NCBI RefSeq assembly: GCF_000445105.1
Contig: NZ_ATDP01000074.1
Span: 1-64,000 of the forward strand
DNA length: 64,000 bases
Direction of reading: 5' to 3'
DNA from: Sphingobium lactosutens DS20
GTDB taxonomy: Bacteria; Pseudomonadota; Alphaproteobacteria; Sphingomonadales; Sphingomonadaceae
Shown here: piece after piece, positions 6,748 through 32,025 of the stretch
Layout: the number at the start of each line of letters is the position of its first letter
Numbering within the stretch: position 1 is the stretch's first letter
Made by a program: the position numbers and the translations under genes
The notes under the pieces: model-generated
Database searches by the model: none
The model's input: only the letters and a program-made list of their open reading frames with translations
Told to the model about the DNA's origin: nothing

Positions 6748-7314
6748 CTAGAGTGTATTGGTCTTGGGGGCCGGCGTAACCGGCTTGTTCCTGCATCCGC
6801 CCATCCGCTCACAGAAGCGGCTTTGCGCATCGGCAACCACTTTGGGCATGGTGTCGCGGACCGCATCCTCGAGTGCCGGCCACATGAGCGTGCGTCCCTT
6901 CTCCAGCCACGCGCGTCCTGGACTGCTCTCGAAAAAGGCGTTGATGCCCTCGAGTTCATCCGAGGTGAAGGCGGCCGCGCAGCTTTGCCTGACATGCTCC
7001 AGCACCGGCGCCTTGGCGGCGGTCAGGGCCTCTGTCAGCGAGTCGCGATAGGCCGTGGCCGTCTGCTTGTCATCGGGGAAGGCGGCTCGCAGCGTCGTGA
7101 AGGAATCCTCGGCCATCTGCCGGATGGTGACGTCCATCTCGGCTTCGAAGCCAGATAGGACGATCGCTCTCGAGCATAGCGCGATCCGCTGCGGCGACGC
7201 ATTGGTGGGCGGCGTGACGGGGGTTTGCGCGCCCGCGCTCGTCATGCCGGCGACGGCCAGGAGGACGAGCGCGGTTCGCGTCGTGGGCTTCAGAATCCGG
7301 AACAGGCTGGGCAC
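6748..7314 (-). CDS. Secreted DUF2059-type protein
   Basis: A 188-residue exported protein of unknown function. A signal peptide (about residues 10-29, hydrophobic LVLLAVAGMTSAGAQ) precedes a mature region. Its segment around residues 115-145 (TSDELEGINAFFESSPGRAW) is the typical DUF2059 motif, in which the phrase resembling AFYxSPxG is conserved. It is therefore periplasmic. It begins 71 bases after the auxiliary lipoprotein gene and may be part of the same transcript. Function unknown. Confidence 0.75.
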   Translation of the reverse strand: MPSLFRILKPTTRTALVLLAVAGMTSAGAQTPVTPPTNASPQRIALCSRAIVLSGFEAEMDVTIRQMAEDSFTTLRAAFPDDKQTATAYRDSLTEALTAAKAPVLEHVRQSCAAAFTSDELEGINAFFESSPGRAWLEKGRTLMWPALEDAVRDTMPKVVADAQSRFCERMGGCRNKPVTPAPKTNTL

Positions 7315-7385: not shown

Positions 7386-8048
7386 TCATTGCCCGCCCTC
7401 CGGGTTTTCGAATTCGGCTACGGCCTTGAGCGACCAGTCGACCAGGTCGCCCGTCTGCCGCGCGACGGCCCTGTCGAACGCCTCCACAATCGCGGCCTTG
7501 CCATTTGCGGTTGCCGGCTCCTGTGCGGAGAAGCGCTGTGAGACGATTTCCTCGACGCGCGCCGGGTTCGTCAGGGTCGCTACGCCTGAGACGAGGACGA
7601 TGGGCGCGGATCCTTTGCCGGCTTGCCCGCCATAGCGCGCCTCGAAGCGGTCGATTTCCAGTCGTAATACCGACCCGGTGCGTTGTCCCGGACGCTCCCT
7701 GGGAGGCGCCAGATACAGATCCGGCGCGCGCGACCTGTACTGGCGCAGAAGGGCCTGGGTGTAGAGATCGGGCGCGGGCGCGGCCCAGCGCGCGTCCTTG
7801 ACATAAAGGACCGTGTCGCCGTGCGCCGTCATTATCCGGTCGCCCTCGATTTCGGGAGCGAAGCGGATGCGCGCGAGCGCCAGCGTCCTCGCCCCTGTTC
7901 CGGCCACGCCCTGGAGCTTTTCCGCATCGGGCACGCCGAATCGGAACAGATTGTCGGGCTTTCCGCTGTCGAGCAAGGATCCGCATGCAGTGAGGCAGGG
8001 CAGGATCAGCAGGCAGATCAGCGCCGCCTTTCGATAGGGTTTTCTCAT
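7386..8048 (-). CDS. ABC-type transport auxiliary lipoprotein (PqiC/MlaB-associated family)
   Basis: A 220-residue lipoprotein with signal peptide and lipobox LTAC, Cys22 being the lipidated residue. The body resembles the ABC-transport auxiliary component family (PF03886 type) that partners MCE systems at the outer membrane. Its start overlaps the stop of the MCE-protein gene by 4 bases (ATGA at 8048-8045), so translation is coupled. Probable role: outer-membrane partner of the Mla-like phospholipid transporter encoded just upstream. Confidence 0.85.
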   Translation of the reverse strand: MRKPYRKAALICLLILPCLTACGSLLDSGKPDNLFRFGVPDAEKLQGVAGTGARTLALARIRFAPEIEGDRIMTAHGDTVLYVKDARWAAPAPDLYTQALLRQYRSRAPDLYLAPPRERPGQRTGSVLRLEIDRFEARYGGQAGKGSAPIVLVSGVATLTNPARVEEIVSQRFSAQEPATANGKAAIVEAFDRAVARQTGDLVDWSLKAVAEFENPEGGQ

Positions 8049-8980
8049 AAGGGGAGCTCCAGTTCCTTCCCGCTGTCCTTTCCGATCGCCCGGCGCGGAC
8101 TGCGTCGTATTTCCCGCACAAGGCTGTCCAGCGAGTCGGCTGCCGCCTGAAGGCTCTGCATCGTCTCGGTGATCGCGGGCAGGGTGGTCGTCCCGATCGT
8201 GCCGCTTTGCCGGTTGACGTTCGCAATCGTCGCGCGCGCATCGCCAACCGCGGCTTTGAGCTCGCGCGCAGTCGCCGAAATATCGGCCATGGCCGTGCGC
8301 CCGTCGCCGTCAAGGAGAGACCGCGCTGACGCGGCGGCGGCCTGGATATCGTCAGCAGAGCGGTCGAGCTTGGCGAGCGTCGAGGCTGCATCGGCGAACA
8401 TCGCGCGGTTTGCGGCAAGCTCGTGCGCCGTCGCCTTAAGGTCCTGCACCGATTGGCCTATCGCATCGATATTGCGATCGGACAGGAGCCTGTTCACGCG
8501 CCGAAGAGCTTCGCCTGCGGTCTCGACGACCTGACCGCCGCCCTGCAGGAGCGAGGACAGGGCGTTGGGCTTGCTCTGGATGATGGGGCGCTTCCCATGG
8601 CGCGTCTCGCGCAACAACGGTTTTCCGACTGTGCCCGCGCTGATCTGGACGATGGAAACGCCCGAAATGCCCTGGGTTTCGGTGGACGCGAGCGAGTCGA
8701 CCCGTACCGGCGTCCCTCGCGAGAGGATGATGTCCGTCACCACCCGGTTGGGATCCTTCTCATCGAGCCGGATCCGCTCGATTTGTCCGACCTTGATGCC
8801 GTTGAACTGCACCTCGGCGCCGACGCTCAGGCCGCGCACCGGGCCATGGAAGATGATGCGATAGGGATCATCGGAGCCGCCGAACCGGCTACCGCCCAGC
8901 CACACGACGAAGACGATCGCGGCGATCAGCAGGGCCGTCGAAATGATGCCCACAAGGGCGTAGCTTGCGTGGCGTTCCAT
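8045..8980 (-). CDS. mlaD: MlaD-like MCE-domain phospholipid transport protein
   Basis: A 311-residue substrate-binding protein of an Mla-type transporter. One N-terminal transmembrane helix (about residues 7-29) anchors it in the inner membrane. The MCE domain follows (GPVRGLSVGAEVQFNGIKVG, about residues 45-65), then a long alpha-helical tail rich in Ala/Asp that could form a tunnel across the periplasm. The ATG at 8980 shares one base with the ATPase stop (TGATG); the longer frame upstream overlaps the ATPase gene and is rejected. Family members move phospholipids between inner and outer membranes. Confidence 0.9.
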   Translation of the reverse strand: MERHASYALVGIISTALLIAAIVFVVWLGGSRFGGSDDPYRIIFHGPVRGLSVGAEVQFNGIKVGQIERIRLDEKDPNRVVTDIILSRGTPVRVDSLASTETQGISGVSIVQISAGTVGKPLLRETRHGKRPIIQSKPNALSSLLQGGGQVVETAGEALRRVNRLLSDRNIDAIGQSVQDLKATAHELAANRAMFADAASTLAKLDRSADDIQAAAASARSLLDGDGRTAMADISATARELKAAVGDARATIANVNRQSGTIGTTTLPAITETMQSLQAAADSLDSLVREIRRSPRRAIGKDSGKELELPL

Positions 8981-9759
8981 CAGCGCTCTTTTCCGGCATG
9001 GGCCGCCCGTCCGCGCGGACCCAGGAAGTAGCTCCTGATCCAGGGATGGTCGGATCGTTCGAGTTCCTCGACCGGCGCCACCGCGACGACTTTCCGGTCG
9101 GCGAGGACGGCCACGCGGTCGCAAATGGCGTAGAGGGTGTCGAGATCGTGGGTGATGATGAATACGGTAAGGCCCAGCGCATCCCGCAACGTCCGCACCA
9201 GTTCGTCGAATTCGCTTGCTCCGATCGGGTCGAGACCGGCGGTGGGTTCGTCAAGGAACAGGATCTGCGGATCGAGCGCGAGGGCGCGCGCAACACCCGC
9301 GCGCTTGCGCATGCCACCTGACAGTTCGGAGGGCCTGAGCTTCCCTGCTGTCTCGGGGAGACCGGACAGCCGGATCTTGAGGCGGGCGATGTCGGCCGTG
9401 ACGGCAAGCGGCAGTCGGGCATGCTCGATCAGCGGCGCCTCGACATTTTCCTGCACCGTCAGGAAGGAAAACAGCGCGCCTTGCTGGAACATGACGCCGA
9501 CATGTCGGCCGACCCAGGCCTGCGCGTCGTCGCTCTCGATATCCCGCCCCAATATCTCGACGCGCCCCCCGTCAGGGTGTTTGAGACCGAGGACGGTGTT
9601 TAGGAGGACAGATTTTCCCGTGCCCGAACCGCCGACCACGCCCAGTATCTCGCCGCGCCTCACCTCGAGATCGAGATCTTCGTGGATGACCTTCTCGCCA
9701 AAAGCGGTGCGCAGGCCCTTGACGCGGATCGGCGGGATGTCCTCTTGCTCCCCATTCAC
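8980..9759 (-). CDS. mlaF: MlaF-like ABC transporter ATPase
   Basis: A 259-residue ABC ATPase energising phospholipid transport. The Walker A is GGSGTGKSVLL, the signature is ELSGGMRKRAGVARAL, and the Walker B is ILFLDEPTAGLDP, followed by the switch histidine in IITHDLDTL. The GMRKR form of the signature is characteristic of the MlaF/Ttg2A family. It overlaps the permease gene by 4 bases and mlaD by 1 base. Confidence 0.93.
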   Translation of the reverse strand: MNGEQEDIPPIRVKGLRTAFGEKVIHEDLDLEVRRGEILGVVGGSGTGKSVLLNTVLGLKHPDGGRVEILGRDIESDDAQAWVGRHVGVMFQQGALFSFLTVQENVEAPLIEHARLPLAVTADIARLKIRLSGLPETAGKLRPSELSGGMRKRAGVARALALDPQILFLDEPTAGLDPIGASEFDELVRTLRDALGLTVFIITHDLDTLYAICDRVAVLADRKVVAVAPVEELERSDHPWIRSYFLGPRGRAAHAGKER

Positions 9760-10865
9760 AGGTCGAGCACCATGAAGATCACCGCGAAGACCGCGTCGAA
9801 CATGATGATCATGAAGATCGACTGGACGACGGCGGAGGTGACGCGCCGGCCAAGGCTCTGCACGTCGCCCTCGACCAGCAGCCCCTGTCGACAGCCGCTG
9901 GCGGCGATGACGATTGCGAGGAAAGGCGCCTTGCTCATGCCGATCCAGAAATGAGTGACGCTGACCGTCTCGAGCGTGCGCTGCACGAAGAAGATCGGGT
10001 TGATGTCGATCGTGATCCAGCTGACGAGCATGCCGCCCAGGATACCGCCGATATCCGCGAAGAAGGTCAGGAGCGGCATCATCAGGATCGCGGCCAGTAC
10101 CCGGGGTATGACGAGCGCGTCGAACCGGTCGATGCTCATGACCTGCATCGCGTCAATCTCCTGGTTCATCCGCATCGAGCCGATCTGCGCGGCGAAAGCC
10201 GAAGCGGATCGACCCGCTAGCAGGATGGCGGTGATGACCACACCGAACTCGCGCAGGATCGCGACGCCCACCAGCTGGACGGTGAATACCTCGACCCCCA
10301 GGCTGGTGAGGAGGTTGGTGCCGACGAGGGCGATGACCGCACCGATGAAGAAGGTCATGATGAACACGATCGGCAGGGCATTGATGCCTGCGTCCTGCAT
10401 TACCGCCACCAATGCGGTCGGCCGCAGGCGGCGTGGATGGACGAGCGTCCTCGCTGCCGCCGTGAGGAGCTGGCCGGAAAAGACCTGCATGGCAAAGCCG
10501 TCCGAGGCCAAAGTCACGACCTGCCGTCCGAAGCGCTCGAAGAAATTGCGTAGAGGATTTGAGGGAACAAGTTTTCCCTCTTCCTCCTCCAGGGCATCGC
10601 CGACGAGCGCCACTAGGCTCCTGACGTCATCGCGATCAGCCCCCTTAAAATCCCGATGCCCGCCCGAGGCCCGCAGCAGGATGAGCATGCCGGCGGTGTC
10701 GATCCTACCTAGCTTCGCCAAATCCACCCGGCATTGCGTATGTCCCTTCACGGCGTGCCCGAGCCGGTCGGCGAGATCACCCATCTCCAGCACAGTCCAG
10801 TTACCTGTCGGCCGCAGCATCAGGCATTCACCCTGCTGTTCCATGTCGAAATCCGCGCCCGTCAT
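9756..10865 (-). CDS. mlaE: MlaE-like permease with N-terminal STAS (MlaB-like) domain
   Basis: A 369-residue fusion. Residues about 1-115 form a STAS-like domain (RPTGNWTVLEMGDLADRLG, DLAKLGRIDTAGMLILL) equivalent to free-standing MlaB. Residues about 150-369 form the MlaE permease with five or six hydrophobic helices and the family signature GRSASAFAAQIGSMRMNQEI. The fusion explains the absence of a separate mlaB gene in the operon. It overlaps the phospholipase gene upstream by 4 bases (ATGA). Confidence 0.92.
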   Translation of the reverse strand: MTGADFDMEQQGECLMLRPTGNWTVLEMGDLADRLGHAVKGHTQCRVDLAKLGRIDTAGMLILLRASGGHRDFKGADRDDVRSLVALVGDALEEEEGKLVPSNPLRNFFERFGRQVVTLASDGFAMQVFSGQLLTAAARTLVHPRRLRPTALVAVMQDAGINALPIVFIMTFFIGAVIALVGTNLLTSLGVEVFTVQLVGVAILREFGVVITAILLAGRSASAFAAQIGSMRMNQEIDAMQVMSIDRFDALVIPRVLAAILMMPLLTFFADIGGILGGMLVSWITIDINPIFFVQRTLETVSVTHFWIGMSKAPFLAIVIAASGCRQGLLVEGDVQSLGRRVTSAVVQSIFMIIMFDAVFAVIFMVLDL

Positions 10866-12088
10866 CGCACGAACGCGATGCCAACACGCAGGCGGGTCAT
10901 GCGCCGGTCATAGTCCAGAAGGTTCTCGCCATAGCCGGCAAAGCCTTGCGCGAAGAGATAGAGGTCTGGACCGCCGCCCAGCAGGCGGGGCAGGGGATAG
11001 GATAGGTCAGCGTTGACCGCGCCTTTGCCGCTGCCGAAGTTGAAACGGGTGGAGGTGGAGAGGCGCAGTCCTTCATCCTCCCCAACCTCCATAAACAGTC
11101 CGGTATTGCCGCGATAGCGCCGGATATCAGGATTGCCGGACTTGTCTCCGACGTAGAAGGAAAGTCGCGGAGCGATCGATAGCCTGTACCCGCCGCCCAG
11201 CGGGATCGCCGCCATCGGCGCGACATAGATGCTGTTGATGCTGCGCGACGCGTCCCCGTCGCGGCCATTGGACTCGTGGCGAATGCCGCCCTGCGCGCTA
11301 ACCGATATCCCGCTCGCGAATGTCGTCGAGGGCGTCAGATAGAAAAGTTCGGGCTGATAGTCGATGTTCCGGAAAGGCGAGGAATGGGCCGCCACATCCC
11401 AGAACATGCGCTGCGTATAGGCAAAATGAAGACCGTCGCGCCACGAGCGTGGCAGCCCTTCGTCGCGCCGCGTGCCGAAGAGCTGATATTTGAAGCTGAT
11501 CTGGATCCGCGTTTCGCTGTCGGTGCCCGGACCATAGACGGCATAGATAGGCTCATAAACCGACAGGTTGGATACGAAGCGGTTGCCGGCCGATCGGTCG
11601 GATACCGGTGCGGCTGCCTCCTTCGGCGGGCCGCCCTGATCGTTCGCGGGTGAGGGCGCCGTCGCCAGTTGGGCAGTGGCCGGAGGGGCCTGCCGCCCGA
11701 TCGCGATCCGCGGTATATTCCAGGCAGGTATCGATATCTCCGCGCCGACCACCTCTACGTCGGGCGGCGCATCGAAATGATATTGGGCCCGCAGAAAGCC
11801 GCCGGCTGATATCGACAAATGGCCGGGCAGATCCCTTGCCCGTTCGAGCCAGATCGTTCTCGTGTCGCCCGAAAGGTCGAGCCGCGCCTCGATCCGATCC
11901 GGCAATGAGATCGATTGCGTTTCCTCGCCCTCGTTGAGAAGGCGCAGATCGACCAGAATTGACCCGTCGCTGTCCCGATCGCCCACATGACGCACCAAAA
12001 TCTCTACGGGCGCGGAGGCGGCGTGGAGCGGACCGGCGGCAAGTCCGATGGCGCCCAGAAGCAGCGGGATGGAGATCGGCTGCCTCAT
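10862..12088 (-). CDS. pldA: Outer-membrane phospholipase A1 (PldA/OMPLA family)
   Basis: A 408-residue predicted outer-membrane beta-barrel enzyme that hydrolyses acyl chains from phospholipids. A signal peptide (residues 1-24, cleavage near LHAA) precedes an N-terminal extension of roughly 150 residues absent from E. coli PldA (289 residues). The catalytic motif RHESNG gives His271 and Ser273, and Asn285 lies in SRSINSIY. The 14-residue His-to-Asn spacing equals that of E. coli His142-Ser144-Asn156. It ends in an aromatic/Arg strand (RVGIAFVR). It is coupled by ATGA overlaps to the fabI-like gene and the permease gene, inside an Mla operon. Confidence 0.9.
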   Translation of the reverse strand: MRQPISIPLLLGAIGLAAGPLHAASAPVEILVRHVGDRDSDGSILVDLRLLNEGEETQSISLPDRIEARLDLSGDTRTIWLERARDLPGHLSISAGGFLRAQYHFDAPPDVEVVGAEISIPAWNIPRIAIGRQAPPATAQLATAPSPANDQGGPPKEAAAPVSDRSAGNRFVSNLSVYEPIYAVYGPGTDSETRIQISFKYQLFGTRRDEGLPRSWRDGLHFAYTQRMFWDVAAHSSPFRNIDYQPELFYLTPSTTFASGISVSAQGGIRHESNGRDGDASRSINSIYVAPMAAIPLGGGYRLSIAPRLSFYVGDKSGNPDIRRYRGNTGLFMEVGEDEGLRLSTSTRFNFGSGKGAVNADLSYPLPRLLGGGPDLYLFAQGFAGYGENLLDYDRRMTRLRVGIAFVR

Positions 12089-12858
12089 GCGAGCAGGTGC
12101 TGGCCGCTGTCGACCGGGATGACCGTGCCGGTGATCCGCTTGGCGGCGTCGCTTACAAGAAAGGCGGCCAATGCGCCGACATCCTCGACTTCGACCAGCT
12201 GGCCGCCCGGTATTTCCGAAGCGGCGCGGTCGAGCAGTTCGTCGAAGCGCTCGATGCCGCTCGCCGCGCGCGTCGCGATCGGCCCCGGCGAAATCGCATG
12301 GGCGCGAATGCCCTTTGGTCCGAGCTCGGCAGCTGCGTAGCGCGTGGCGCTCTCGAGCGCAGCCTTGACCGGACCCATCAGATTATAATGGGAAACGACC
12401 CGTTCGGAGCCGTAGAAAGTGACGCACAAAAGGCATCCGCCATCGCGCATCAGCGGCTCGGCGAGTTTCGCCATGCGCAGGAAACTGTGGCAGGACACGT
12501 CCATGGCGACGCCAAAACCTTCGGCTGAGGAATCGACGACCCGGCCGTGCAGATCCTCTCGCGGCGCGAAGGCGATCGAATGGAGCAGAAAATCGAGGCC
12601 GCCCCATTTGCGTCCGACCTCTTCGAACAATGCTTCGAGCTGGCCCGGCTCGCGCACATCGCAGGGAGCGAGCCACTCGACGCCGAGCCGGTCGGCGACG
12701 GGCTCGACCCATGTCCTGGCCTTTTCGTTCAGATAGGTGGCCGCCAGCCGCGCGCCGCAGCGGGAAAAGGCATCGGCGCATCCTGCCGCGATGCTCTTCT
12801 CGTTCGCGATGCCGAGCACCAGGCCGCGCTTGCCGGTAAGATCGACGAGGGGTTTCAT
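12085..12858 (-). CDS. fabI: Enoyl-ACP reductase FabI-type SDR
   Basis: A 257-residue short-chain dehydrogenase of the FabI class, which reduces trans-2-enoyl-ACP with NAD(P)H. The FabI-type nucleotide-binding segment is VLGIANEKSIAAG, the mid motif is LLHSIAFAP, and the active site has Tyr158-X6-Lys165 (YNLMGPVK). It overlaps neighbours by 4 bases at both ends. Its place next to pta, ackA and phaC rather than with fatty-acid synthesis genes suggests a specialised enoyl-thioester reductase. Which thioester it uses cannot be decided from sequence. Confidence 0.85.
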   Translation of the reverse strand: MKPLVDLTGKRGLVLGIANEKSIAAGCADAFSRCGARLAATYLNEKARTWVEPVADRLGVEWLAPCDVREPGQLEALFEEVGRKWGGLDFLLHSIAFAPREDLHGRVVDSSAEGFGVAMDVSCHSFLRMAKLAEPLMRDGGCLLCVTFYGSERVVSHYNLMGPVKAALESATRYAAAELGPKGIRAHAISPGPIATRAASGIERFDELLDRAASEIPGGQLVEVEDVGALAAFLVSDAAKRITGTVIPVDSGQHLLA

Positions 12859-14045
12859 AGAGTTCCTTCCAGAACATGAAGCGTGTGGAGCGCGATCATG
12901 CGCTCCTCATCGGTCGGAATGACGTGCACCGCGACCGGGCTGTCGGGCATGCCGATCCGCAGCGCATCGCCGGCATTGGCGATTTCGTCGATCGTGACGC
13001 CAAGCCAGTCCAGCCGCGCGCAGATACGGCTGCGAACCTCGGCGCTGTTTTCGCCTATGCCCGCGGTAAAGACGAGCGCATCGAGGCCGCCCAGCGACGC
13101 GGTCAATGCCGCCACCTCCCGCGCGGCGCGCCAGGTGAAGAGGTCGATTGCTTCGGCGGCTTGCGGCGCCGCGCTCGCCGTGAGCGTGCGCATATCGCTC
13201 GATATCCCCGACACACCCAGCAGGCCGGATTCCCTGTAAAAGAGCGTCTCGACCTCGGTCGCGCTCATGCCAAGCTGCGTCTGGAGGTGAAGCACCACAC
13301 CGGGGTCGATGCTGCCGCACCTTGTGCCCATCATCAGGCCATCGAGCGCGGTGAAGCCCATGGTGGTATCGACGCTCTTGCCCGCCCGCATCGCGCACAG
13401 GCTCGCGCCGTTGCCCAGATGCGCGGCGATGACCCGTCCGGCGGCAAGAGCAGGGTCGATTTCACCCAGGCGGCGGGCGATATATTCGTAGGAGAGCCCG
13501 TGGAAGCCGTAGCGCCGGATGCCCTGGTCGTGAAAGGCGCGGGGCAGCGCCAGGCGCGACGCCACAGCCGGCTTGTCATGGTGGAAGGCGGTGTCGAAGC
13601 AGGCGACCTGCAGCAGATCGGGCGCAAGCGCGGCTATCGCCCGGATGGCGGCCAGATTGTGCGGCTGATGCAGCGGCGCCAGCGGGCACAGCGCTTCGAG
13701 CTTGTCCAGAAGCGGCGCGTCGACCCGTCGCGGCGCGGCGTACTCGGTGCCGCCATGGACGACCCGATGCCCGATCGCGACGACCTCCTGGCCCTCCAGC
13801 GGATGATCGGTAGCCCAGGCAAAGAGATCCCTGAGGAGATCGGCATGGCTGAGCGCCGCGCCGCCCGGCCAGTCCCGTTCCAGGATGGTCTTGCCGTCGC
13901 TGGACCGCGCCCTGAGGCTTGGCGCAATGCCGATCCGCTCGATCTTGCCGCCGGCAGAAAGATGCAGAGTCCCTTCCGCATCCAGCGTGAAGAGCGAGAA
14001 TTTGATGCTCGAAGAGCCGGAATTGAGGCTGACGATGGCCTTCAT
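12855..14045 (-). CDS. ackA: Acetate/propionate kinase
   Basis: A 396-residue acetate kinase (ASKHA superfamily) interconverting acetyl phosphate plus ADP with acetate plus ATP. Family signatures include the N-terminal LNSGSSSIKFSLF, the central GHRVVHGG, FDTAFH, and the C-terminal FTAGIGENS. Length is standard (about 400). It overlaps pta by 4 bases upstream and fabI by 4 bases downstream. With the phosphate acyltransferase it can make ATP from acyl-CoA, possibly also longer acyl groups. Confidence 0.94.
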   Translation of the reverse strand: MKAIVSLNSGSSSIKFSLFTLDAEGTLHLSAGGKIERIGIAPSLRARSSDGKTILERDWPGGAALSHADLLRDLFAWATDHPLEGQEVVAIGHRVVHGGTEYAAPRRVDAPLLDKLEALCPLAPLHQPHNLAAIRAIAALAPDLLQVACFDTAFHHDKPAVASRLALPRAFHDQGIRRYGFHGLSYEYIARRLGEIDPALAAGRVIAAHLGNGASLCAMRAGKSVDTTMGFTALDGLMMGTRCGSIDPGVVLHLQTQLGMSATEVETLFYRESGLLGVSGISSDMRTLTASAAPQAAEAIDLFTWRAAREVAALTASLGGLDALVFTAGIGENSAEVRSRICARLDWLGVTIDEIANAGDALRIGMPDSPVAVHVIPTDEERMIALHTLHVLEGTL

Positions 14046-15469
14046 GGTGTGTTCCCCTGGACACCCGGCGCCGCCTTGGTGGCGGCGCGTGCCATCAACA
14101 CTGCGACCGCGCAGGAGGCGAGGCGGGTGCGCAGGCTGTCGGCACGGCTCGTGAGGATGATCGGCACCCGTGCGCCCAGCACGATCCCCGCCGCATCCGC
14201 CCCGCCAAGAAACGTCAGTTGCTTGGCCAGCATGTTGCCCGCCTCGAGATTGGGCACGACGAGGATATCGGCCTTGCCGGCCACCGGCGAGATGATGCCT
14301 TTCTCCCTGGCGGCCGCCTCGCTGATCGCATTGTCGAAGGCGAGCGGGCCGTCCAGCACGCCGCCGGCGATCTGGCCGCGGTCGGCCATTTTGCAGAGCG
14401 CGGCGGCATCCAGCGTCGATGGCATGTCGGGATTGACGGTCTCCACGGCGCAGAGGATCGCGACCCTGGGTTCTTCGATACCCATCACATGCGCGAGGTC
14501 GATCGCGTTGCGGATGATATCGGCCTTGTCCTGGAGCGACGGCGCGATATTGATGGCGGCATCGGTGATGATGAGCGGCGCCGGGTGGCCCGGCACGTCC
14601 ATGATATAGGCATGGCTGATCCGCCGCTCGGTCCTGAGCCCCGTGGCCGACGGGACGACTGCGCCCATCAGTTCGTCGGTATGCAGCGACCCCTTCATCA
14701 GCAGTTTCGCTTCGCCCGACCGCACCAGCGCCACGGCCCTGGCGGCGGCGTCGTGGCTATGGTCGGCCGCGATCAGGCGATAGGCGGAGATGTCCTTGCC
14801 GGCCTCTTGGGCCGCCTTCCTTATCCGCGCTTGCGGCCCCACAAGGACGGGCGCGATGAGGCCTGCTTCCGCGGCCTCGATCGCCGCGCCAAGCGCTGCG
14901 GCGCTGCACGGATGCGCAACGGCGGTCAGCGCCGGTTCGCCCGTCGAGGTCAGTTCTATCAGCCGACGATAGCCGTCATGATCGCTGAGACGCACATCGG
15001 GTAGCGCCATGCGCGGTCTGCGGACCTTTTCTGAAGGCGCCATCACCTCGGCCTGGCCGGAAATCACCTCCTCGCCGTCCTGGTTGACGCAGCGACAATC
15101 GAACAGGACGATCCGCCGCTCGGTCCGTTTTTCCAGAACCGTCACCGAAGCGGTGATCGTATCGCCGAGGCCTACGGGCCGGGTGAAGCGCAGCGATTGG
15201 CTGAGATAGATAGCGCCAGGCCCTGGCAGCTCCGTTCCCAGAACCGCGGAAATGAGACCGCCGCCCCACATGCCGTGCGCGATGACGCGCTGGAAGATGT
15301 CGGTTGCGGCATAGTCCGCGTCGAGATGGGCAGGGTTGACGTCGCCCGAGACCAGCGCGAATAGTTGGATATCCTGCTCCGTCAAGGTCCGCGTTAAGCT
15401 TGCCGTTGCGCCGATCACGATCTCGTCGAATGTGCGGTTCTCGATTATCGTCTCGTCGCTCACGCTCAA
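14042..15469 (-). CDS. Bifunctional MaoC-like enoyl-CoA hydratase / phosphate acetyltransferase
   Basis: A 475-residue two-domain enzyme. Residues about 10-140 form a hot-dog MaoC/(R)-hydratase domain with the catalytic D-H pair in SGDVNPAHLD and the helix IAHGMWGGGL. Residues about 165-470 form a phosphate acetyl/butyryltransferase domain (KLLMKGSLHTDELM, ITDAAINIAPSLQDK, FDNAISEAAAREKGI). The hydratase could supply (R)-3-hydroxyacyl-CoA to PhaC, while the transferase converts acyl-CoA to acyl phosphate for AckA. It overlaps phaC and ackA by 4 bases each. Confidence 0.93.
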   Translation of the reverse strand: MSVSDETIIENRTFDEIVIGATASLTRTLTEQDIQLFALVSGDVNPAHLDADYAATDIFQRVIAHGMWGGGLISAVLGTELPGPGAIYLSQSLRFTRPVGLGDTITASVTVLEKRTERRIVLFDCRCVNQDGEEVISGQAEVMAPSEKVRRPRMALPDVRLSDHDGYRRLIELTSTGEPALTAVAHPCSAAALGAAIEAAEAGLIAPVLVGPQARIRKAAQEAGKDISAYRLIAADHSHDAAARAVALVRSGEAKLLMKGSLHTDELMGAVVPSATGLRTERRISHAYIMDVPGHPAPLIITDAAINIAPSLQDKADIIRNAIDLAHVMGIEEPRVAILCAVETVNPDMPSTLDAAALCKMADRGQIAGGVLDGPLAFDNAISEAAAREKGIISPVAGKADILVVPNLEAGNMLAKQLTFLGGADAAGIVLGARVPIILTSRADSLRTRLASCAVAVLMARAATKAAPGVQGNTP

Positions 15470-17223
15470 TGCTCCAGCACATAATGACCGGGCGCGTCGG
15501 CAAGGGCAGGATAGCCCTTGTCGGGCGCGCCCATGGGCGGCGGCGGGCCAGCTTCACCGGAGTGCGCTGCAAGCCATTCACCCCATTCGATCCACCAGGA
15601 TCCCTGCTTCTGTTCGGCGTGCTGCTGCCATTCCTCGGGATCAAGCGACGGCCCGTCGACCTCCCGCGTCAGCACCCGATAGCGCCGGCCCTTATGGCCT
15701 GGCTCCGACACGATGCCAGCATTGTGCCCGCCGCTCGTCAGGACGAAGCGGATATCCGCGCTGGTGAGCAGGTGAATCTTGTGAACCGAGCGCCAGGGGG
15801 CGACATGGTCCCGCTCGGTGCCGACGACGAACAGAGGTTTTCGGAGCGCCGACAGCGTGATCGCCCGGCCGCCCACCTTATATTTGCCTTCGGCCAGATC
15901 ATCGTCGAGAAACAAGCGCCGCAAATACTGGCTGTGCATCGCATAGGGCATGCGCGTGCCGTCAGCGTTCCACGCCATCAGGGCGTTCATGGGCTCGCGT
16001 TCGCCCATGAGATAGGTGCCGAGCACTCGCGACCAGACCAGATCGTTGGAATTGAGAATCTGGAAGGCGCCGCCCATCTGCCCGCTGTCGAGATAGCCCC
16101 GGCTCCACATCATGTTCTCGAGCAGGTTGAGTTGCCCCTCGTCGATGAACAGGCCGAGTTCGCCGGGCTCGCTGAACTCGGTCTGCGCGGCGAACAGGGT
16201 GACGCTCGCCAGCCGCTCGTCACCGTCGCGCGCCATCGCGGCAGCTGCGATCGAGAGCAATGTGCCGCCCAGGCAATAGCCCACTCCATGGATGGCCGAT
16301 GCGCCGGTGATCGCGCTCACTGCGTCAAGAGCAGCCATGGGCCCCATAGTGCGATAGGCTTCCATGTCGAGGTCGCGATCCTGGCTTCCCGGATTGTGCC
16401 AGGAGATCATGAAGACGGTATGGCCCTGGTCCGTCAGCCATCGCACAAGCGAGTTCTCAGGCGACAGGTCGAGGATGTAGTATTTCATGATCCAGGCCGG
16501 CACGATCAGGATCGGCTCGGGCCTCACCTTGTCGGTCGTCGGCGCATATTGGATGAGTTCGATGAGGCGATTGCGGAAGACCACCTTGCCCTTCGTGGCA
16601 GCAACGGTCTCACCCACGCAGAACTGCTCTACGCCGACCGGCGGCAGTCCCCGGACGATATGCTGCCAATCTTCGAATAGATGCTGGAGGCCATCGACGA
16701 TGCACCGGCCGCCCGTCTCGATGATGCGTTTCTGAAGGACCGGATTGGTCGCGAGGAAATTCGTCGGGGCAAGCGTGTCGAGCATCTGTCGCGCGGCGAA
16801 CTCGATCATCTCCTCATGATGCTTCGTCACGCCGCCTATGCCGGTGGTGGCCGCATACCACCATTGCTGGGTCAGCAGGAACGCCTGAGAGAGCAGGTTG
16901 AAGGGAGGCTCCTTCCAGGCCGGATCAGCGAAGCGCCGATCCTGCGGCAGCGGCTCGATCGCGGGATCCGCACTGCTGTCGCCTGCGCTTCGGATTGCAT
17001 AGTCGAAAAGACGGACATATTTGCGGGCGAGCTTGGCGCCCAATTGCATCTGCTTGCCCGGTGAGAAGGCGAGATGCAGTCCCCAGTCGGTGAAGGCCTG
17101 GAGAACGGTAGCCGGCGACAGGCCCGCCGTCATCTGCGCGATCGCCGCTGACGACGCCCGGTCCAGCGTTTCGGCAATGCCGTCGAGCGGGTCTGCGGGC
17201 GAAGCTGCAACGGGACTGATCAT
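15466..17223 (-). CDS. phaC: Class I poly(3-hydroxyalkanoate) synthase PhaC
   Basis: A 585-residue PHA/PHB polymerase. The lipase-like box HGVGYCLGG places the catalytic cysteine at residue 317, close to Cys319 of the Cupriavidus enzyme; the partner Asp (ERDHVAPW) and His (SGGHNAGIV) are present near the C-terminus. The start at 17223 is chosen because AGGAG lies 8 bases upstream; a frame extension to 17304 lacks such a site. It is the first gene of a nine-gene block in which every junction overlaps. The promoter region carries a block shared with the phaB locus (17391-17417). Confidence 0.93.
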   Translation of the reverse strand: MISPVAASPADPLDGIAETLDRASSAAIAQMTAGLSPATVLQAFTDWGLHLAFSPGKQMQLGAKLARKYVRLFDYAIRSAGDSSADPAIEPLPQDRRFADPAWKEPPFNLLSQAFLLTQQWWYAATTGIGGVTKHHEEMIEFAARQMLDTLAPTNFLATNPVLQKRIIETGGRCIVDGLQHLFEDWQHIVRGLPPVGVEQFCVGETVAATKGKVVFRNRLIELIQYAPTTDKVRPEPILIVPAWIMKYYILDLSPENSLVRWLTDQGHTVFMISWHNPGSQDRDLDMEAYRTMGPMAALDAVSAITGASAIHGVGYCLGGTLLSIAAAAMARDGDERLASVTLFAAQTEFSEPGELGLFIDEGQLNLLENMMWSRGYLDSGQMGGAFQILNSNDLVWSRVLGTYLMGEREPMNALMAWNADGTRMPYAMHSQYLRRLFLDDDLAEGKYKVGGRAITLSALRKPLFVVGTERDHVAPWRSVHKIHLLTSADIRFVLTSGGHNAGIVSEPGHKGRRYRVLTREVDGPSLDPEEWQQHAEQKQGSWWIEWGEWLAAHSGEAGPPPPMGAPDKGYPALADAPGHYVLEH

Positions 17224-18089
17224 GATAGTCGCTCCTGACTTTGAACATCCCGCCGCGGCTACGCACGGATCATGCGACACGATCGGATTCGACCGTGTCG
17301 CCATAACGGTACTGCCCGGGATAGATATTGCGCAAGTGGTGTTTTCAGTGAAGAAGGGTGGCGATGATCGCTATCGCCCGTTTTATCCCTCTGGCTGACA
17401 CGAAGCCGATAAGTATAGTCCCGGATGGCTGCCCGGAAACATGGGCTGGCGGCAAGGCCTCGGCGAACGTGGCGCATGATCGGAAGCAAGTCCGGCGAAA
17501 AGCGTTCATCGCTGCAATGCGACCGCATCCGGCTGGCGCAGGTCCGTCATACCGTGTTTCGTCGATCGGAAGCCGAAATGGCGAGGATGGATCGCTTTCT
17601 GACGGAAGGCGGGAAAACGGGATATCTCATGCCGCCAAGTGGCCGGTGTTATATCCGTTGAGCTTCGTCGTAACTGCGGATCAGATCGGCGGTCCCGGGG
17701 TGTCGCAAGCCCGTTGCGTAGCTTGCAATGCCGCAATGACCAGCTGCCAACGGGGCCAAAGACGTCGACCGCTTCGGGCAACGAAGGAAGGGTATCGAGC
17801 GCCGTCTCGCACAGCGCGCAGATCGCGCTGCAATTTCGTCAAATGCTACAAAGACGTCGTAGCCATCGGCCGCATCGGTATCATGCCCGATCGCCTCGAG
17901 GACTGAGGCCGTGTCGCCACATAGTGCGGGAGATGCGCGACAGGCTTTCCCTTCACTTTCGCATTGGCACCTGGTGCTGATCCAGCCGCCTGACCAAAGT
18001 CGCCAACACAATACATGTTATGTCATTTATTGACAAAGCAACGAATCAAGTTCAATGGCGCTGCTGCGTGGCAGCGCCTGACCCAGAAC
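17224..18089. other. Long phaC upstream region, no convincing gene
   Basis: About 865 bases between phaC and the second IS21. It holds the presumed phaC promoter (near 17391-17440). Open frames of 78-182 codons (e.g. 17358-17906 plus, 17649-18011 minus) have no recognisable domain. The C-terminal part of the TonB receptor truncated by the IS is not found here, so sequence was deleted next to the IS. The remainder looks like non-coding or decayed DNA. Confidence 0.5.
17391..17417 (-). promoter_or_regulatory. Candidate shared regulatory site upstream of phaC
   Basis: This 27-base block matches 25274-25300 (tetR/phaB intergenic) at 20 of 27 positions, including the unbroken 12-mer CCGATAAGTATA (17406-17417). 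On the minus strand it reads TATACTTATCGG, so the first six bases could be a -10 element. It ends about 170-195 bases before the phaC start. I infer a TetR operator and/or promoter; no protein binding is shown. Confidence 0.4.
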
Positions 18090-18174: not shown

Positions 18175-18954
18175 TCAAGCGGGTGATTTTTCCTTTCTGG
18201 ATTTGGGCGCTGCCGAACTGGCGCGGAAGCGGAAGCTGTCGTTTCCGGTCTCGAGGATGTGGCAGTGATGGGTGAGCCGATCGAGCAGCGCTGTGGTCAT
18301 CTTGGCGTCGCCGAACACACCGGCCCACTCGCTGAAGCTGAGGTTGGTGGTGATGATGACGCTGGTGCGCTCATAAAGTTTGCTGAGCAGGTGGAAGAGG
18401 AGAGCGCCGCCGGACGGGCTGAACGGCAGATAGCCCAGTTCGTCGAGGATGAGCAGATCGAGGCGAAGAAGCCGGTCAGCCAACTGCCCGGCCTTGTTCA
18501 TGGCCTTTTCCTGTTCCAGCGCGTTGACCAGATCGACGGTGGCGAAGAAGCGGACCTTCTTGCGGTGATGCTCGACCGCCTGCACGCCGAGGGCAGTGGC
18601 GATGTGGGTTTTGCCAGTGCCGGGGCCACCGATCAGCACGACATTGTGAGCCCCATCGATGAACTCGCCGCGATGGAGCTGGCGGACCATGGCCTCGTTC
18701 ACTTCGCTGGAAGTGAAGTCGAAGCCGGTCAAATCCTTGTAAGCCGGGAACTTGGCCGCCTTGATCTGATAGGCGATGGACCGGACCTCGCGTTCGGCGA
18801 CCTCCGCCTTGAGCAATTGGGAGAGGATGGGAACGGCCGCATCGAACGCAGGCGCGCCTTGCTCGACGAGGTCGCCGACAGCCTGGGCCATGCCATACAT
18901 CTTGAGCGAGCGCAGCATAACCACGACGGCGGCGCTGGCGGGGTCATGACGCAT
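18175..18954 (-). CDS. istB: IS21 helper ATPase IstB (second element)
   Basis: A 259-residue IstB/DnaC-type AAA+ protein with Walker [12 protein letters not shown] and Walker [14 protein letters not shown], ending in a basic tail (KSRKEKSPA). The start at 18954 overlaps the end of istA by 11 bases. It differs clearly from the IstB at 124-891 (different N-terminus and Walker A context), so the two elements are not copies of each other. Confidence 0.92.
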
Positions 18955-20482
18955 GGCGAAGGTCCTTGTTCCGCAGGGTGTCATAACGGGCGACATTGGC
19001 CTTGGGTTCGCGCCTCAGGACCAGAGCCTGCGGGGCATCGATCCTGGGGGGAGTACCGTCCTTGCCGTCGATCAGGCGGTGCAGGATATTGAGGATGTGG
19101 GTCTTGGTCGCAATGCCGGCCTCGAGAGCCAGCTCGACGGCACACAGCACGGCCTGTTCGTCATGGTGCAGGACCAGCGAGAGGATCTCCACCATCTCCC
19201 TATCGCCGCCGGGGCGCTTCAGAAGCTGGCCCTGCAGCTGCCGGAACGCCTCCGGCATCTCGGTGAAGGGCGCGCCATTGCGCAGGGCTCCGGGCTTGCG
19301 CTGGATCACCGCGAGATAGTGCCGCCAGTCATAGATCGTCCGTCCCGGCTGATCATGGGATCGTTCGATGATCCGCCCATGCTCGCACAGGATCTGCCCC
19401 TCGGCAGCAATGACGATCCGATCGGGATAGACCCGCAAGCTCACCGGCCGGTTGGCGAAGGACGCGGGGACGCTGTAGCGGTTGCGCTCGAAGGATATCA
19501 GACAGGTCGGCGACACCCGCTTGGTGTGTTCGACGAAGCCGTCGAAGGGCCGCCCCAGCGGCATCAGGCTGGCGAGTTCGGCGGCATGCACGTCGGCGAT
19601 GGTGCCGGGCAGCACACCGTGGGCAATCTGTTCCCACTGCGCGATGCATTGCGCCTCGAGCCAGGCGTTGAGTGCATCGATATCCGGGAAGGCGGGCCCA
19701 GAAGGACCATGGGCCTGCCATAGCCGCCGCCGCGCATCCTGGACATTCTTCTCGACCTGACCCTTCTCCCATCCTGCGGCGGGATTGCAGAACTCCGGTT
19801 CGAACAGATAGTGGCTCGCCATGGCGGCAAAACGGGCGTTGACCTGACGGGCTTTGCCACTGCCGATCTTGTCGACTGCGGTCTTCATATTGTCGAAGAT
19901 CCCGCGCTGCGGCACGCCCCCAAGCACCCGGAAGGCCTGGGTCATGGCATCGAACAGCATCTCGTGGGTCTGGAGCGGATAGGCGCGGACGATGAAAGCC
20001 CTGCTGTGCGACAGCTTCGTATGTGCGGCCTGCAGCTTGGTCTGCCTGCCGCCGATCATCGCCCAGTCCTCGCTCCAGTCGAACTGAAAGGCTTCGCCGG
20101 GCTGGAAGATCAACGGCACGAACGTCCCGCGCCCACTTGTCTGGGCGTCGCGCTGCCGGTCGGCCTTCCAGGCCCGCGCAAAGGCCGCAACGCGGTTGTA
20201 GGAACCGTCGTACCCCAAGGCCACGAGATCGGCGTGCATCTGCTTGGCTGTACGCCGCTGCTTGCGCGACTTGCTGCCCTCGATCCTCAACCAGGCTGAC
20301 AGCTTCTCGGCAAACGGGTCCAGCTTGCTCGGCCGCTCGGGAACCTTGAACTTCGGCTCCACCGTGTCCGCACGCAGGTACTTGCGGATCGTGTTGCGCG
20401 ACAATCCCGTGCGCCGTTCAATCTCACGGATCGGGATGTGCTGCCGGAAATGCCAGCGACGGATTACACTCAGTAACGCCAT
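18944..20482 (-). CDS. istA: IS21 transposase IstA (second element)
   Basis: A 512-residue DDE transposase. The N-terminal helix-turn-helix is [19 protein letters not shown]. Catalytic acidic residues appear in [16 protein letters not shown] and [12 protein letters not shown]. The start at 20482 ([10 protein letters not shown]) fits the family. The frame could extend 20 codons upstream towards the IS end, but that stretch lacks family similarity. Intact and potentially active. Confidence 0.93.
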
Positions 20483-20535
20483 GTCGATCACTCCAGGATC
20501 TCCCGACCTGCAAGCCAGGAGAACGATCAGAACAT

Positions 20536-20595
20536 GGGTCAATTCTCAGTGGAAATTTCTGCCCCTCCCGGGTCAGCTCTCAATGGAAATCAACA
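20536..20595. repeat. IS21 right terminal repeats (second element)
   Basis: Inverted copies of the left-end repeats are at 20536-20555 and 20570-20589, with the tip at 20595. The spacing between the two copies is larger here (14 bases) than at the left end (4 bases). Confidence 0.75.
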
Positions 20596-22303: not shown

Positions 22304-22720
22304 GTGATCATCGCTAGCGAGGCCTGGGCTGACAGGCACGGCGTGGCGCCGGCCGCACGCCTGGTCGCGTTCGGCGTCGGCGCCGTAGAGCCCGGACTGT
22401 TTGGGCTGGGGCCAGTCCCGGCAGTGCGTCAGGCACTCGCCCGCGCCGGCTGGTCGGTATCGGATCTGGAGCGCGTGGAGATCAACGAGGCTTTTGCCGC
22501 GATCACGATCGCCGTGGCCGGTGAACTGGGCTTGCCCGAGGATATCGTCAATGTCGAGGGTGGTGCGATCGCACATGGCCATCCGATCGGCGCGACGGGC
22601 GCGGTCCTGACCACCCGTTTGCTCCATTCCATGCAGCGCGATGGTCTTCGGCGGGGTCTGGTCACGCTCTGCATCGGGGGCGGGCAGGGCGTCACGCTGC
22701 TCGTAGAGGTCGTTTCCTGA
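22304..22720 (+). pseudogene. C-terminal fragment of an acetyl-CoA acetyltransferase (thiolase)
   Basis: 138 codons matching only the C-terminal third of a thiolase. The catalytic segments NEAFAA, EGGAIAHGHPIGATGA (active-site His) and LCIGGGQG (active-site Cys) are present, while the N-terminal domain with the nucleophilic Cys is absent. A GTG at 22304 opens the frame but no family-like sequence precedes it. Non-functional remnant, perhaps once a phaA-type gene given the PHB genes around it. Confidence 0.8.
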
Positions 22721-23322: not shown

Positions 23323-23655
23323 TCATGCATGCCCGCTGCCCTCGCGGCGCGGTCGCCCGCCGCGGACATGCGCGCTCGCGTCAATGATCGTCTCGGCGCT
23401 AGGATTTAGATTCTCAACCGCACCGGCCATGCCGAAAATCTCGACCCGCCCGCCCTCGTTATAAATGCGTCCCGCTACAGTGCCGTGCAGGATTGCGCGC
23501 GCGCCAGCTTCGATGGTGAGGTCGCCCATGATCGTGCCATGGAGGATGAACCGCGCGCCGCTCTTGAGTGTCGCGGCACCGCTGATAGTGCCATAGAGCG
23601 CCATGTCCTCGCCAATCTCGAGCGGGCCTTCGATGCTGTCGTGAACCGCGCGCAT
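23323..23655 (-). CDS. Bactofilin-like polymer-forming protein
   Basis: A 110-residue protein made largely of short beta-helix turns (ALYGTISGAATLKSGARFIL, then HGTIMGDLTIEAGARAILHG), as in polymer-forming cytoskeletal (bactofilin-like) proteins. No signal peptide or membrane helix. Its ATG shares one base with the vapC stop at 23655, so it is translated with the toxin-antitoxin pair. Family members often act as scaffolds at the membrane; a third-gene role in a VapBC operon is unusual. The identity as a beta-helix protein is fairly clear, its job is not. Confidence 0.7.
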   Translation of the reverse strand: MRAVHDSIEGPLEIGEDMALYGTISGAATLKSGARFILHGTIMGDLTIEAGARAILHGTVAGRIYNEGGRVEIFGMAGAVENLNPSAETIIDASAHVRGGRPRREGSGHA

Positions 23656-24044
23656 TATGCAGCCGCCTCGAGATCTGTCAGGGCAAAGTCATTGCCCTTG
23701 AACAGCAAGGGCTCGCCGGTCGCCTTGGCGAGTGCAAATGAAAAGCAGTCGCCGAAATTCAAGCCGGCCTTGTGGCGGCCCTTGCCGAAATCCAGAAAGG
23801 CTTGCCGCGCCAACTCACCATGTTCGACCGTCACCGGTTCGATCGTAATTCCCGCGCGCCGGAAGAAGGCTTCTGCCTGGCGCATTCCTTCGGATCCGAG
23901 CTGGTTTTCAATGACGATCGACAATTCGACATAGGTTGCGCCGCTGATACGGCATGCGTCGGCATTGTGGATTGCCTGGGTAAACGATTCCGCTTCGGGT
24001 TCGCGATAAAGGATCGCAACCAGCGCCGATGTATCAAGGATCAT
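23655..24044 (-). CDS. vapC: VapC-type PIN-domain toxin
   Basis: A 129-residue PIN-domain ribonuclease, probably a type II toxin cutting tRNA or rRNA. Conserved acidic residues appear in MILDTSALVAIL (Asp4), YVELSIVIE (Glu) and LNFGDCFSFALAK (Asp), with the following ALAK helix typical of VapC. It starts within the end of vapB (4-base overlap, 24041-24044) and ends on the first base of the bactofilin-like gene. Confidence 0.9.
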   Translation of the reverse strand: MILDTSALVAILYREPEAESFTQAIHNADACRISGATYVELSIVIENQLGSEGMRQAEAFFRRAGITIEPVTVEHGELARQAFLDFGKGRHKAGLNFGDCFSFALAKATGEPLLFKGNDFALTDLEAAA

Positions 24045-24289
24045 TTCGGCAAGCCATTTTCATCGTAAAGCAGCTCGCCATGCTCGATATAGGATCGCTT
24101 CACATGGACGGCGGCGCGATCCGCGATTGCCAGCAGCTCCGCCACGCTTGCCTTGCGTTTGTTCCGCTCGATCCGGGCGTAGCACTCGCGCAGCGCCTCC
24201 GTCACCACGCGGGTCATGCTCTGGCCGGTCGCCTGGGCGATGGCACGGGCGAGTCTATGAGCCTCGGGATCTTTGACGTTAAGGCTCAC
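24041..24289 (-). CDS. vapB: VapB-type antitoxin (PSK/Rv0623 family)
   Basis: An 82-residue antitoxin. The N-terminus, MSLNVKDPEAHRLARAIAQA, is the typical form of the PSK-operon/Rv0623-like family that binds DNA and neutralises VapC. The C-terminal tail (DENGLPK) would wrap the toxin. It is first in the three-gene operon, so autoregulation is expected at the sequence upstream of 24289. Confidence 0.88.
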   Translation of the reverse strand: MSLNVKDPEAHRLARAIAQATGQSMTRVVTEALRECYARIERNKRKASVAELLAIADRAAVHVKRSYIEHGELLYDENGLPK

Positions 24290-24529: not shown

Positions 24530-25207
24530 TCAATCCCCGAGAAAAGGCGAGGCGCGTATGACGAGCGCTATCGTGCGCTCGAGATAGTCGGACTTCGCCT
24601 CCGGCGTATCGGGCATCTCGCGCCGGTCGAGGATCCTGGCGCGGGGAATGCTCACCAGTGCGTCGAAAATGAACGCGGCGAGAAAATGCAGGTCTTCGCG
24701 TAGGTCGCCATGCTCTGCTGCGGCGTCCTCCAGAATGGGCAGGATGACTTCCGTTCCCGCCGCCATTCCGATGAGTGGTCTCGGACCATCGGCGGCAAGG
24801 CCATGATCGGCGACCCAGTCGACCAAGGCCAGAATGCCGATCACCTCCTTCGTCAGCGACAGATCGAGCATCTCGCTCGCAAGATGCAGAAGCTGTTCGC
24901 ACGGGGCGCCGGCTGGAGTGGTCGAGGCTATCGGTTTGAGATGCCGGGCGGTGCCATGTTCCAGCGCGGCCACCAGGAGGCCGTTCTTCGAACCGAAGCG
25001 CGCATAAAGCGTTCGCTTCGACACGTCCGCGGCAGTGGCGATACTTTCCATGCTGGCGCCATCGGGACCATGCCGGACGAACTGTTCGAGCGCTGTCTCG
25101 AGGATATGGGTACCGAGTTTAGCCGCGATTTCCTGGGTGGGTCGGCCGCCCCGGGGGTCGCGCGGGGGCAATCGGTCAGAATTCTGAATCGGGGAACTGG
25201 CGGTCAT
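24530..25207 (-). CDS. TetR-family regulator divergent from phaB
   Basis: A 225-residue regulator. The N-terminal helix-turn-helix spans about residues 27-75 (ATAADVSKRTLYARFGSKNG), and the C-terminal half is an all-helical ligand domain of the AcrR/TetR C type. The start at 25207 is preferred; the longer frame upstream lies in the intergenic region. It is transcribed away from phaB across a 161-base gap that contains the block shared with the phaC promoter, so it is the best candidate regulator of both PHA loci and of the exporter genes downstream of phaB. Confidence 0.87.
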   Translation of the reverse strand: MTASSPIQNSDRLPPRDPRGGRPTQEIAAKLGTHILETALEQFVRHGPDGASMESIATAADVSKRTLYARFGSKNGLLVAALEHGTARHLKPIASTTPAGAPCEQLLHLASEMLDLSLTKEVIGILALVDWVADHGLAADGPRPLIGMAAGTEVILPILEDAAAEHGDLREDLHFLAAFIFDALVSIPRARILDRREMPDTPEAKSDYLERTIALVIRASPFLGD

Positions 25208-26647: not shown

Positions 26648-26669
26648 GGGTCGCATCTCGAGCCGAGTG

Positions 26670-32024: not shown

Positions 32025-32025
32025 C

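Follow-up and report, generated by a model that had tools for sequence, protein, structure and literature searches.

The stretch analysed here, referred to as the window, consists of 64,000 nucleotides at the start of contig NZ_ATDP01000074.1 of Sphingobium lactosutens DS20. On its minus strand, positions 7386-17223 carry nine intact genes with no internal stop codons, which combine a polyhydroxyalkanoate (PHA) synthase gene (phaC), a gene fusion of maoC and pta, ackA, a fabI-like gene, the outer-membrane phospholipase gene pldA, and a cassette of the Mla type consisting of mlaE, mlaF, mlaD and a lipoprotein gene (Table 1). Each of the nine proteins matched the expected Pfam family in a profile search. 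Re-reading of the sequence confirmed the initial annotation in that the genes run in one direction and overlap at every one of the eight junctions, by 4 bases at seven of them and by a single base at the other; in gene order from phaC the overlaps are 4, 4, 4, 4, 4, 4, 1 and 4 bases. The same annotation took the overlaps to mean that the products are made in fixed proportion, which goes too far, as overlaps suggest translational coupling and not fixed proportions.

Table 1. Features of the operon and its surroundings in the window
Feature	Positions	Strand	Support or remark
DUF2059 gene, possible tenth member	6748-7314	-	PF09832 1.5e-6
ABC-type transport auxiliary lipoprotein	7386-8048	-	PF03886 4e-18
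mlaD, MCE-domain protein, 311 aa	8045-8980	-	PF02470 3e-14
mlaF, ATPase	8980-9759	-	PF00005 3e-31; best NCBIfam name MlaF, under cut-off
mlaE, MCE-transporter permease, weak STAS part	9756-10865	-	PF02405 1e-66
pldA, outer-membrane phospholipase A, extra N-terminal beta domain	10862-12088	-	PF02253 3e-40
fabI-like enoyl reductase	12085-12858	-	NF005717 414 bits, cut-off 337
ackA, acetate/propionate kinase	12855-14045	-	PF00871 1e-110; 1g99 5e-85
maoC-pta fusion, (R)-enoyl-CoA hydratase and phosphotransacylase	14042-15469	-	NF006045 763 bits, cut-off 282
phaC, class I-like PHA synthase	15466-17223	-	PF07167 1e-59; 585 aa from ATG at 17223
Conserved upstream element CTTGC-N4/5-ATCT-N8-CAGTACCGTT	17305-17336	-	81 bases before ATG at 17223
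IS21-type element between TetR and phaC	18175-20542	-	IstB_IS21 1.4e-76; Mu-transpos_C_2 1e-16
phaA remnant, C-terminal third of thiolase	22304-22717	+	Thiolase_C 2.5e-40
TetR regulator	24530-25348	-	TetR_N 5e-15
phaB, acetoacetyl-CoA reductase	25231-26103	+	TIGR01829 355 bits, cut-off 302
Exporter: outer membrane factor (OMF) 26616-28199, HlyD 28196-29272, RbbA 29277-32024, ABC-2 permease 32026-33153	26616-33153	+

The overlaps are kept in related operons. When the window and near-copies are included and the start codon is taken as that nearest the previous stop, the 4-base overlap is present at 23 of 24 junctions between fabI and pldA, at all 12 between ackA and pldA, and at 6 of 7 between pldA and mlaE. 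The overlap between phaC and maoC in the window rests on a TTG start, and 29 of 40 other operons have a 3-base gap instead. Judged from these comparisons, the conserved overlaps exceed chance. The unit is co-directional and overlapping in several genera and its catalytic motifs are conserved, so joint expression of the PHA and acyl-phosphate enzymes, PldA and the MCE transporter is likely; the gene arrangement suggests joint transcription itself. The operon may extend to the DUF2059 gene, a relative of which lies downstream in two of the six other full operons (L032 and L074; loci, genomes and contigs are cited by our L, G and C numbers), the contig of L075 stopping too early to show one. An ATG at 17304 is a possible alternative start of phaC upstream of that at 17223.

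Properties of the encoded proteins

PhaC scores 546 bits with the class I model TIGR01838, below the cut-off of 622.65, and class I is still the best-scoring class of PHA synthase. Its GYCLGGT, ERDHVA and SGGHNAG segments align with the Cys, Asp and His regions of the PHA synthase 9knj, which we take to supply the catalytic residues. The solved structure closest to the MaoC half of the fusion is the (R)-specific enoyl-CoA hydratase 5cpg (3.5e-42). For the Pta half, the top NCBIfam models name a phosphate acetyltransferase (NF006045, and NF008852 with 497 bits, both above cut-off), narrower models favour phosphate butyryltransferase (312 bits) over classical pta (76 bits), and the closest solved chain is the phosphate butyryltransferase 7vg9 (7e-69), the best chain named as a phosphotransacetylase being 1r5j (3e-14). 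The models and structures thus disagree on whether the transacylase would act on acetyl or butyryl groups. The closest solved relative of AckA is an acetate kinase. Phosphotransacylases and kinases of the Pta and AckA families are best known for activity on short acyl chains.

PldA contains the PLA1 domain PF02253 (139 bits, cut-off 27) and reaches 107 of the 369 bits set for NF008031 (PRK10763 phospholipase A). Like outer-membrane phospholipase A (OMPLA, 1qd6), with which it aligns and whose barrel fold it matches, it has the catalytic His-Ser-Asn pattern: in a 23-row alignment His271 and Ser273 are invariant and Asn285 is conserved in at least 90% of the rows. It differs from OMPLA in an extra N-terminal domain of about 110 residues (approximately residues 25-135), beta-sandwich-like, which lies outside the OMPLA alignments, is also present in sphingomonad relatives, and was predicted with a mean pLDDT of 88. 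The domain has no match in the PDB at E 0.001 or better.

MlaE, MlaF and MlaD score above the cut-offs of PF02405, PF00005 and PF02470, respectively, while the NCBIfam models bearing Mla names remain below theirs. MlaE has 205.5 bits with the permease model TIGR00056 (cut-off 212.2) and 23.2 bits with STAS_2 (cut-off 29.2). The order of permease, ATPase and MCE protein is that of Mla/Ttg2 transport systems; in contrast to those, the operon lacks MlaC, has MlaA on other contigs, and ends its cassette with a PF03886 lipoprotein. Moreover, nine MlaE proteins of plasmid or operon type group apart from chromosomal MlaE with 100/100 support, in a tree with two long branches and unsettled bootstrap values. 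The several curated NCBIfam cut-offs missed by PhaC, PldA and MlaE indicate that the operon proteins are divergent members of their families.

The genome assembly is a draft in 110 contigs, for which 7.77% contamination is listed. It contains a second MlaE on C94, adjoined by MlaF and MlaD, a second PldA on C89, and, on C106, both a second PhaC and a second MaoC-Pta with AckA and FabI adjoining. Since the main functions are duplicated on other contigs, the operon set looks accessory. No PF05494 match that would represent MlaC was found in the operon or in the rest of this draft, whereas MlaA is represented by two PF04333 matches outside the operon, on C109 and C72. No acyl-CoA synthetase was found on the contig of the window, and all eight AMP-binding matches of the genome are on other contigs.

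Recurrence among genomes

The initial annotation had left it to a neighbourhood search to decide whether this gene order is limited to one strain. The search recovered the full nine-gene order in six further genomes, namely Sphingobium arseniciresistens (L074), Sphingomonas laterariae (L075), Sphingomonas sp. IC081 (L076), Sphingobium sp. TCM1 (L077, with pldA and mlaE 385 bases apart), a Sphingomonas metagenome-assembled genome (L078) and genome G057 (L032). L075 and L076 share 99.97% identity across 6,384 bases, so that the seven genomes represent six lineages. Another locus of G057 (L035) has phaC, maoC-pta, ackA and mla without fabI and pldA.

A scan of a named genome collection by pldA alignment gave 60 loci, not exclusively from sphingomonads. 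Relatives of PhaC, MaoC-Pta and AckA adjoin pldA at 25 of them (16 with FabI, 9 without), two more are cut by contig ends, and 33 have no PhaC, MaoC-Pta or AckA above the identity limits, three of these with a phaC stub. The mla genes occur at five of the 60 loci (L074-L078). A PLA1 match was found in 19 of 119 genomes of the same family, with a total of 24 copies, eight of which are inside a phaC cluster and one more (L034 in G057) after a phaC remnant; this sample overlaps with that of the 60 loci (G101 is L079 and G039 is L087). In the class at large, PLA1 at E 1e-12 or better is present in 3 of 289 genomes, which are the genome of the window, another member of its family, and a third genome with a 344-bit match that resembles none of the others and is possibly contamination. 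MaoC-Pta or Pta at E 1e-100 or better is present in 46 of the 289, in 20 of which the match covers nearly the whole fusion. Genomes lacking pldA also contain the fusion, and the same family has phaC clusters with no pldA (L036, L040, L044-L046).

The upstream element and natural deletions that keep pldA

Alignment of upstream regions identified a conserved element of 31-32 bp that marks six lineages and is a candidate promoter or operator. The 1.95 Mb of fetched sequence contain 17 exact matches, a count that includes the window site twice and near-copies, and three further matches that differ at one position. Every match precedes phaC or its stub, and the reversed pattern used as a control had no match at up to three mismatches. 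CAGTACCGTT alone stands before phaC or a stub in 19 of the 20 loci having it, the exception being L116. The fetched sequence was picked for these operons and the motif was derived there, and a whole-genome search is consequently the fairer test. Such a search of 11 chosen genomes yielded four matches, always upstream of phaC and with a single match per genome, in G000, G039, G101 and G114, and none in the other seven, which include the operon carriers G057 and G102. At up to one mismatch the element was also not found before phaC in L031, L032, L033, L035, L036, L038, L040, L045, L063, L066, L074-L076, L095, L097, L100 and its near-copies, L101 and L109. It fits none of the sigma-factor or operator consensus sites with which it was compared.

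General control by FNR or PhoB was considered and appears unlikely from a scan of 41 upstream regions for the consensus boxes; 25 of the regions are distinct, three are truncated, and that of L043 was wrongly extracted. A perfect FNR box occurs upstream of phaC in only one region (L109), and the closest match to a Pho box differs at 4 of 14 positions over all regions and at 6 of 14 in the window.

Three of the 60 pldA loci retain a phaC stub with the element, together with pldA. At L071 (8200-9000) the element is followed by about 85 phaC codons joined to pldA by a 4-base ATGA overlap, with the remainder of phaC through fabI gone; L072 and L091 share both the element and the phaC match with L071, and L034 is a decayed version of the arrangement. 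All four loci keep relatives of PhaA, PhaB, OMF and HlyD in their flanks. That the element and pldA were kept after the deletion of most of phaC through fabI indicates that pldA is independent of the PHA set of this operon. At the stub loci pldA would once have been expressed from the phaC promoter and then retained without the PHA genes of the operon.

Evolution and mobility

A quick tree was built from the PhaC, MaoC-Pta and AckA sequences of 23 loci, two of them distant, on long branches, and used as outgroup. The presence of pldA requires one change on this tree and that of mla six, at least four of them forced by well-supported branches. A single clade of mla-bearing operons was rejected (p = 4.6e-5 by the AU, or approximately unbiased, test). 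The mla pattern may reflect either repeated loss of an ancestral cassette or repeated gain, as both are compatible with the tree. Values of dN/dS between the window and L032, L074, L077 and L078 range from 0.04 to 0.37 across the nine genes and indicate that all nine are under purifying selection. The corresponding dS is approximately 0.8-1.8, and the overlaps are kept across such divergence.

Other copies are nearly identical across genera. Relative to L080 (Sphingomonas sp. Y57), copies in Novosphingobium, Sphingobium, Hephaestia and Rhizorhabdus are 98.5-99.98% identical over 5,560 bases, and L087 is lower, at 95.7%; the operons of the L100 group are 99.6-99.8% identical over about 6.3 kb, and plasmid pF1 (L066) matches L095 at 100% over 6,341 bases. 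The contig of the window has F-type transfer genes at 47-62 kb, where TraG_N scores above its cut-off and TraF, TraH, TrbC and TraW were matched below theirs. With transfer genes on the same contig, the operon is putative cargo of a conjugative plasmid. Two different IS21-type elements flank it, at 124-2396 and 18175-20542.

Flanking genes

The TetR gene of the window is divergent to phaB and the OMF-HlyD-RbbA-permease set. Its product is 47-51% identical over 217-251 residues to several TetR proteins flanking other phaC operons and about 33% identical to others. PhaB has 216 of the 436 bits of the stricter equivalog NF042966, RbbA has 1563 bits with NF033858 (cut-off 1050), and the phaA remnant is 81-83% identical to thiolases beside phaC operons of other loci. 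Between TetR and phaC lie the IS21-type element, an AraC-type gene, the thiolase remnant and a VapBC-like pair (23655-24289) of a PIN-domain protein and an Rv0623-like antitoxin. Plasmid pF1 has the same exporter gene order and flank layout without the insertion between TetR and phaC.

Within the flanking sequence covered, TetR or exporter genes occur at 14 of 20 representative phaC operons (17 of the 20 with pldA), where OMF was counted 10 times, TetR 8, HlyD 7, and RbbA and the permease 6 each, and at none of 18 control loci. Of the 196 flank proteins, 92 were scanned against Pfam, drawn from 14 operon loci plus two pldA loci (L027 and L034); the commonest families were OEP (10), ABC_tran (9) and TetR_N (8). 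In two lineages (L031/L101 and the L100 group) HlyD, RbbA, permease and OMF genes directly follow pldA, where others have mla.

Several further neighbours were recorded. An ABC ATPase gene adjoins phaC in several operons (upstream in L031, L032 and L074); in the pDC02 copy (L064:3307-4230) it is on the opposite strand and annotated as a lipopolysaccharide-export ATPase, and a universal stress protein is encoded near the operon. On pSA2 (L063:10149-15981) a PAS kinase gene overlaps pldA; behind it come two response-regulator genes and one for a P-type ATPase. On plasmids p2 and pF1, mla cassettes lie away from phaC (L067:5666-12519 and L068:5449-12361), next to genes for a MarR or TetR regulator, an AarF/UbiB protein and an additional MlaD. 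On the small plasmid pISP3 (L069:3392-10122) pldA lies about 4.5 kb from linD, with linE farther off.

Discussion

The reading that we favour, although with somewhat less than even confidence, is that the operon is a horizontally moved envelope-stress island that couples outer-membrane lipid repair with an acyl-CoA overflow or polyhydroxybutyrate branch. Membrane-disturbing chemicals, or another stress sensed via TetR, would relieve repression; the exporter would remove the membrane-disturbing agent, PldA would destroy phospholipid flipped onto the cell surface, and the Mla-type transporter would shift phospholipid between the membranes. PhaA, PhaB and PhaC, together with MaoC-Pta, AckA and FabI, could provide a sink for acyl-CoA and reducing power as well as a source of ATP once growth stops. 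As a side stream, part of the membrane acyl chains might enter this sink by way of acyl-CoA synthetases encoded on the chromosome and beta-oxidation. The analysis shows the gene content and order, the overlaps, the recurrence, the selection, the mobility context and the neighbours, from which a common transcript, control by TetR, the stress signal and the roles given to the parts are inferred. The reading is consistent with the recurrence of the operon, its overlaps, the dN/dS values, the TetR and exporter flanks against none at the control loci, the exporter sets that take the place of mla in two lineages, the layout on pF1, the flanks of the stub loci, the copies shared across genera and the second copies in the genome.

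Several observations weigh against this notion. Six of the 20 phaC operons (L032, L033, L040, L045, L097 and L109) have no TetR or exporter genes, and RbbA itself is present in just 6 of the 20. The 18 control loci comprise nine of 17-19 kb and nine of only 7-8 kb, two of them (L040 and L045) also among the 20, and the flank queries came mostly from operon loci and the window. Such flanks are mostly missing at pldA loci without phaC, where TetR or exporter genes were found at 7 of 28 named loci and 3 of 18 others, so that the flank goes with phaC-type operons and not with pldA as such. In the window, TetR is 7 kb from phaC and behind the IS21-type element, so that its control may be broken. 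Finally, the PAS kinase and response regulators on pSA2, along with the phosphate-responsive related clusters described in PMC8231600, suggest that the signal may instead be oxygen or phosphate.

A rival explanation, which we consider rather unlikely, is that this is mainly a carbon-overflow operon for low oxygen or low phosphate, as in rhizobia, with pldA and mla riding along for membrane remodelling. In PMC8231600, phaC with fused phaJ-pta, ackA and fabI is described as a cluster (group D1 of Burkholderia sensu lato), and that paper refers to a co-transcribed, PhoB-controlled ORF-pta-ack-fabI set in Sinorhizobium meliloti; according to PMC10888616, pta and two ackA genes are induced in a Bradyrhizobium phaR mutant. 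The pSA2 genes following pldA, including the P-type ATPase, the universal stress protein on pDC02 and the FNR box of L109 fit the same explanation, but the scarcity of FNR and Pho boxes in the scanned upstream regions speaks against it.

The initial annotation proposed in effect one metabolic line, in which membrane acyl chains supplied by PldA and Mla end up as polyester or ATP through MaoC, Pta/AckA and PhaC. The joined system holds insofar as a co-directional, overlapping unit with conserved catalytic motifs recurs in several genera; the flow of acyl chains into polyester is possible but not supported, and we regard it as unlikely. It could draw on the close association of pldA with phaC-pta-ackA, which has a single origin on the quick tree, on the 4-base overlaps, and on the (R)-hydratase half, which could use beta-oxidation intermediates. 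Against it stand the contig without an acyl-CoA synthetase, the mainly short-chain enzyme families, the MaoC-Pta fusions widespread in genomes without pldA, the phaC clusters likewise without it, the stub loci where pldA outlived most of phaC through fabI, and the frequent TetR and exporter neighbours. A variant appears equally unlikely, in which a repair-and-bank module spread by plasmids responds to outer-membrane damage: PldA and the Mla-type transporter would harvest acyl chains from misplaced phospholipid, which co-translated MaoC-Pta, AckA, FabI and PhaC would bank as polyester or convert into ATP. Plasmid aggregation of useful genes stacked behind one promoter without shared function is least probable, as the frequent changes of mla on the quick tree and the separate mla cassettes on p2 and pF1 agree with it but the pldA link was made once and then kept, and the overlaps are conserved over long divergence.

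In Pseudomonas, solvent tolerance involves Ttg2 and regulated efflux at separate loci. The envelope-stress island would likewise combine an MCE lipid transporter and efflux for one stress; it differs from those separate sets in that one island holds PHA genes next to an ABC exporter of RbbA type. The window shares with the phaC-phaJ/pta-ackA-fabI clusters of Burkholderia sensu lato and S. meliloti the gene order, the MaoC/PhaJ-Pta fusion, ackA and fabI, whereas the pldA gene, MCE transporter and TetR/exporter genes of the sphingomonad operons are unmentioned in the portions of PMC8231600 consulted. The statement in the initial annotation that no described system joins all of these parts accordingly needs to be divided: the front half has been published, and for the join of pldA or mla with phaC or PHA no description was found in the open-licence papers searched.

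Storage polyesters and outer-membrane lipid asymmetry, subjects of fields that rarely meet, are tied here in one inherited mobile unit. Since pldA is rare among the sampled genomes of the class, what appears to be a single capture of this gene by a PHA operon represents a clear evolutionary event. The records of pDC02 and pF1, both with a pldA-bearing operon, give wastewater as the source, and the island may aid the survival of such bacteria against toxic hydrophobic compounds.

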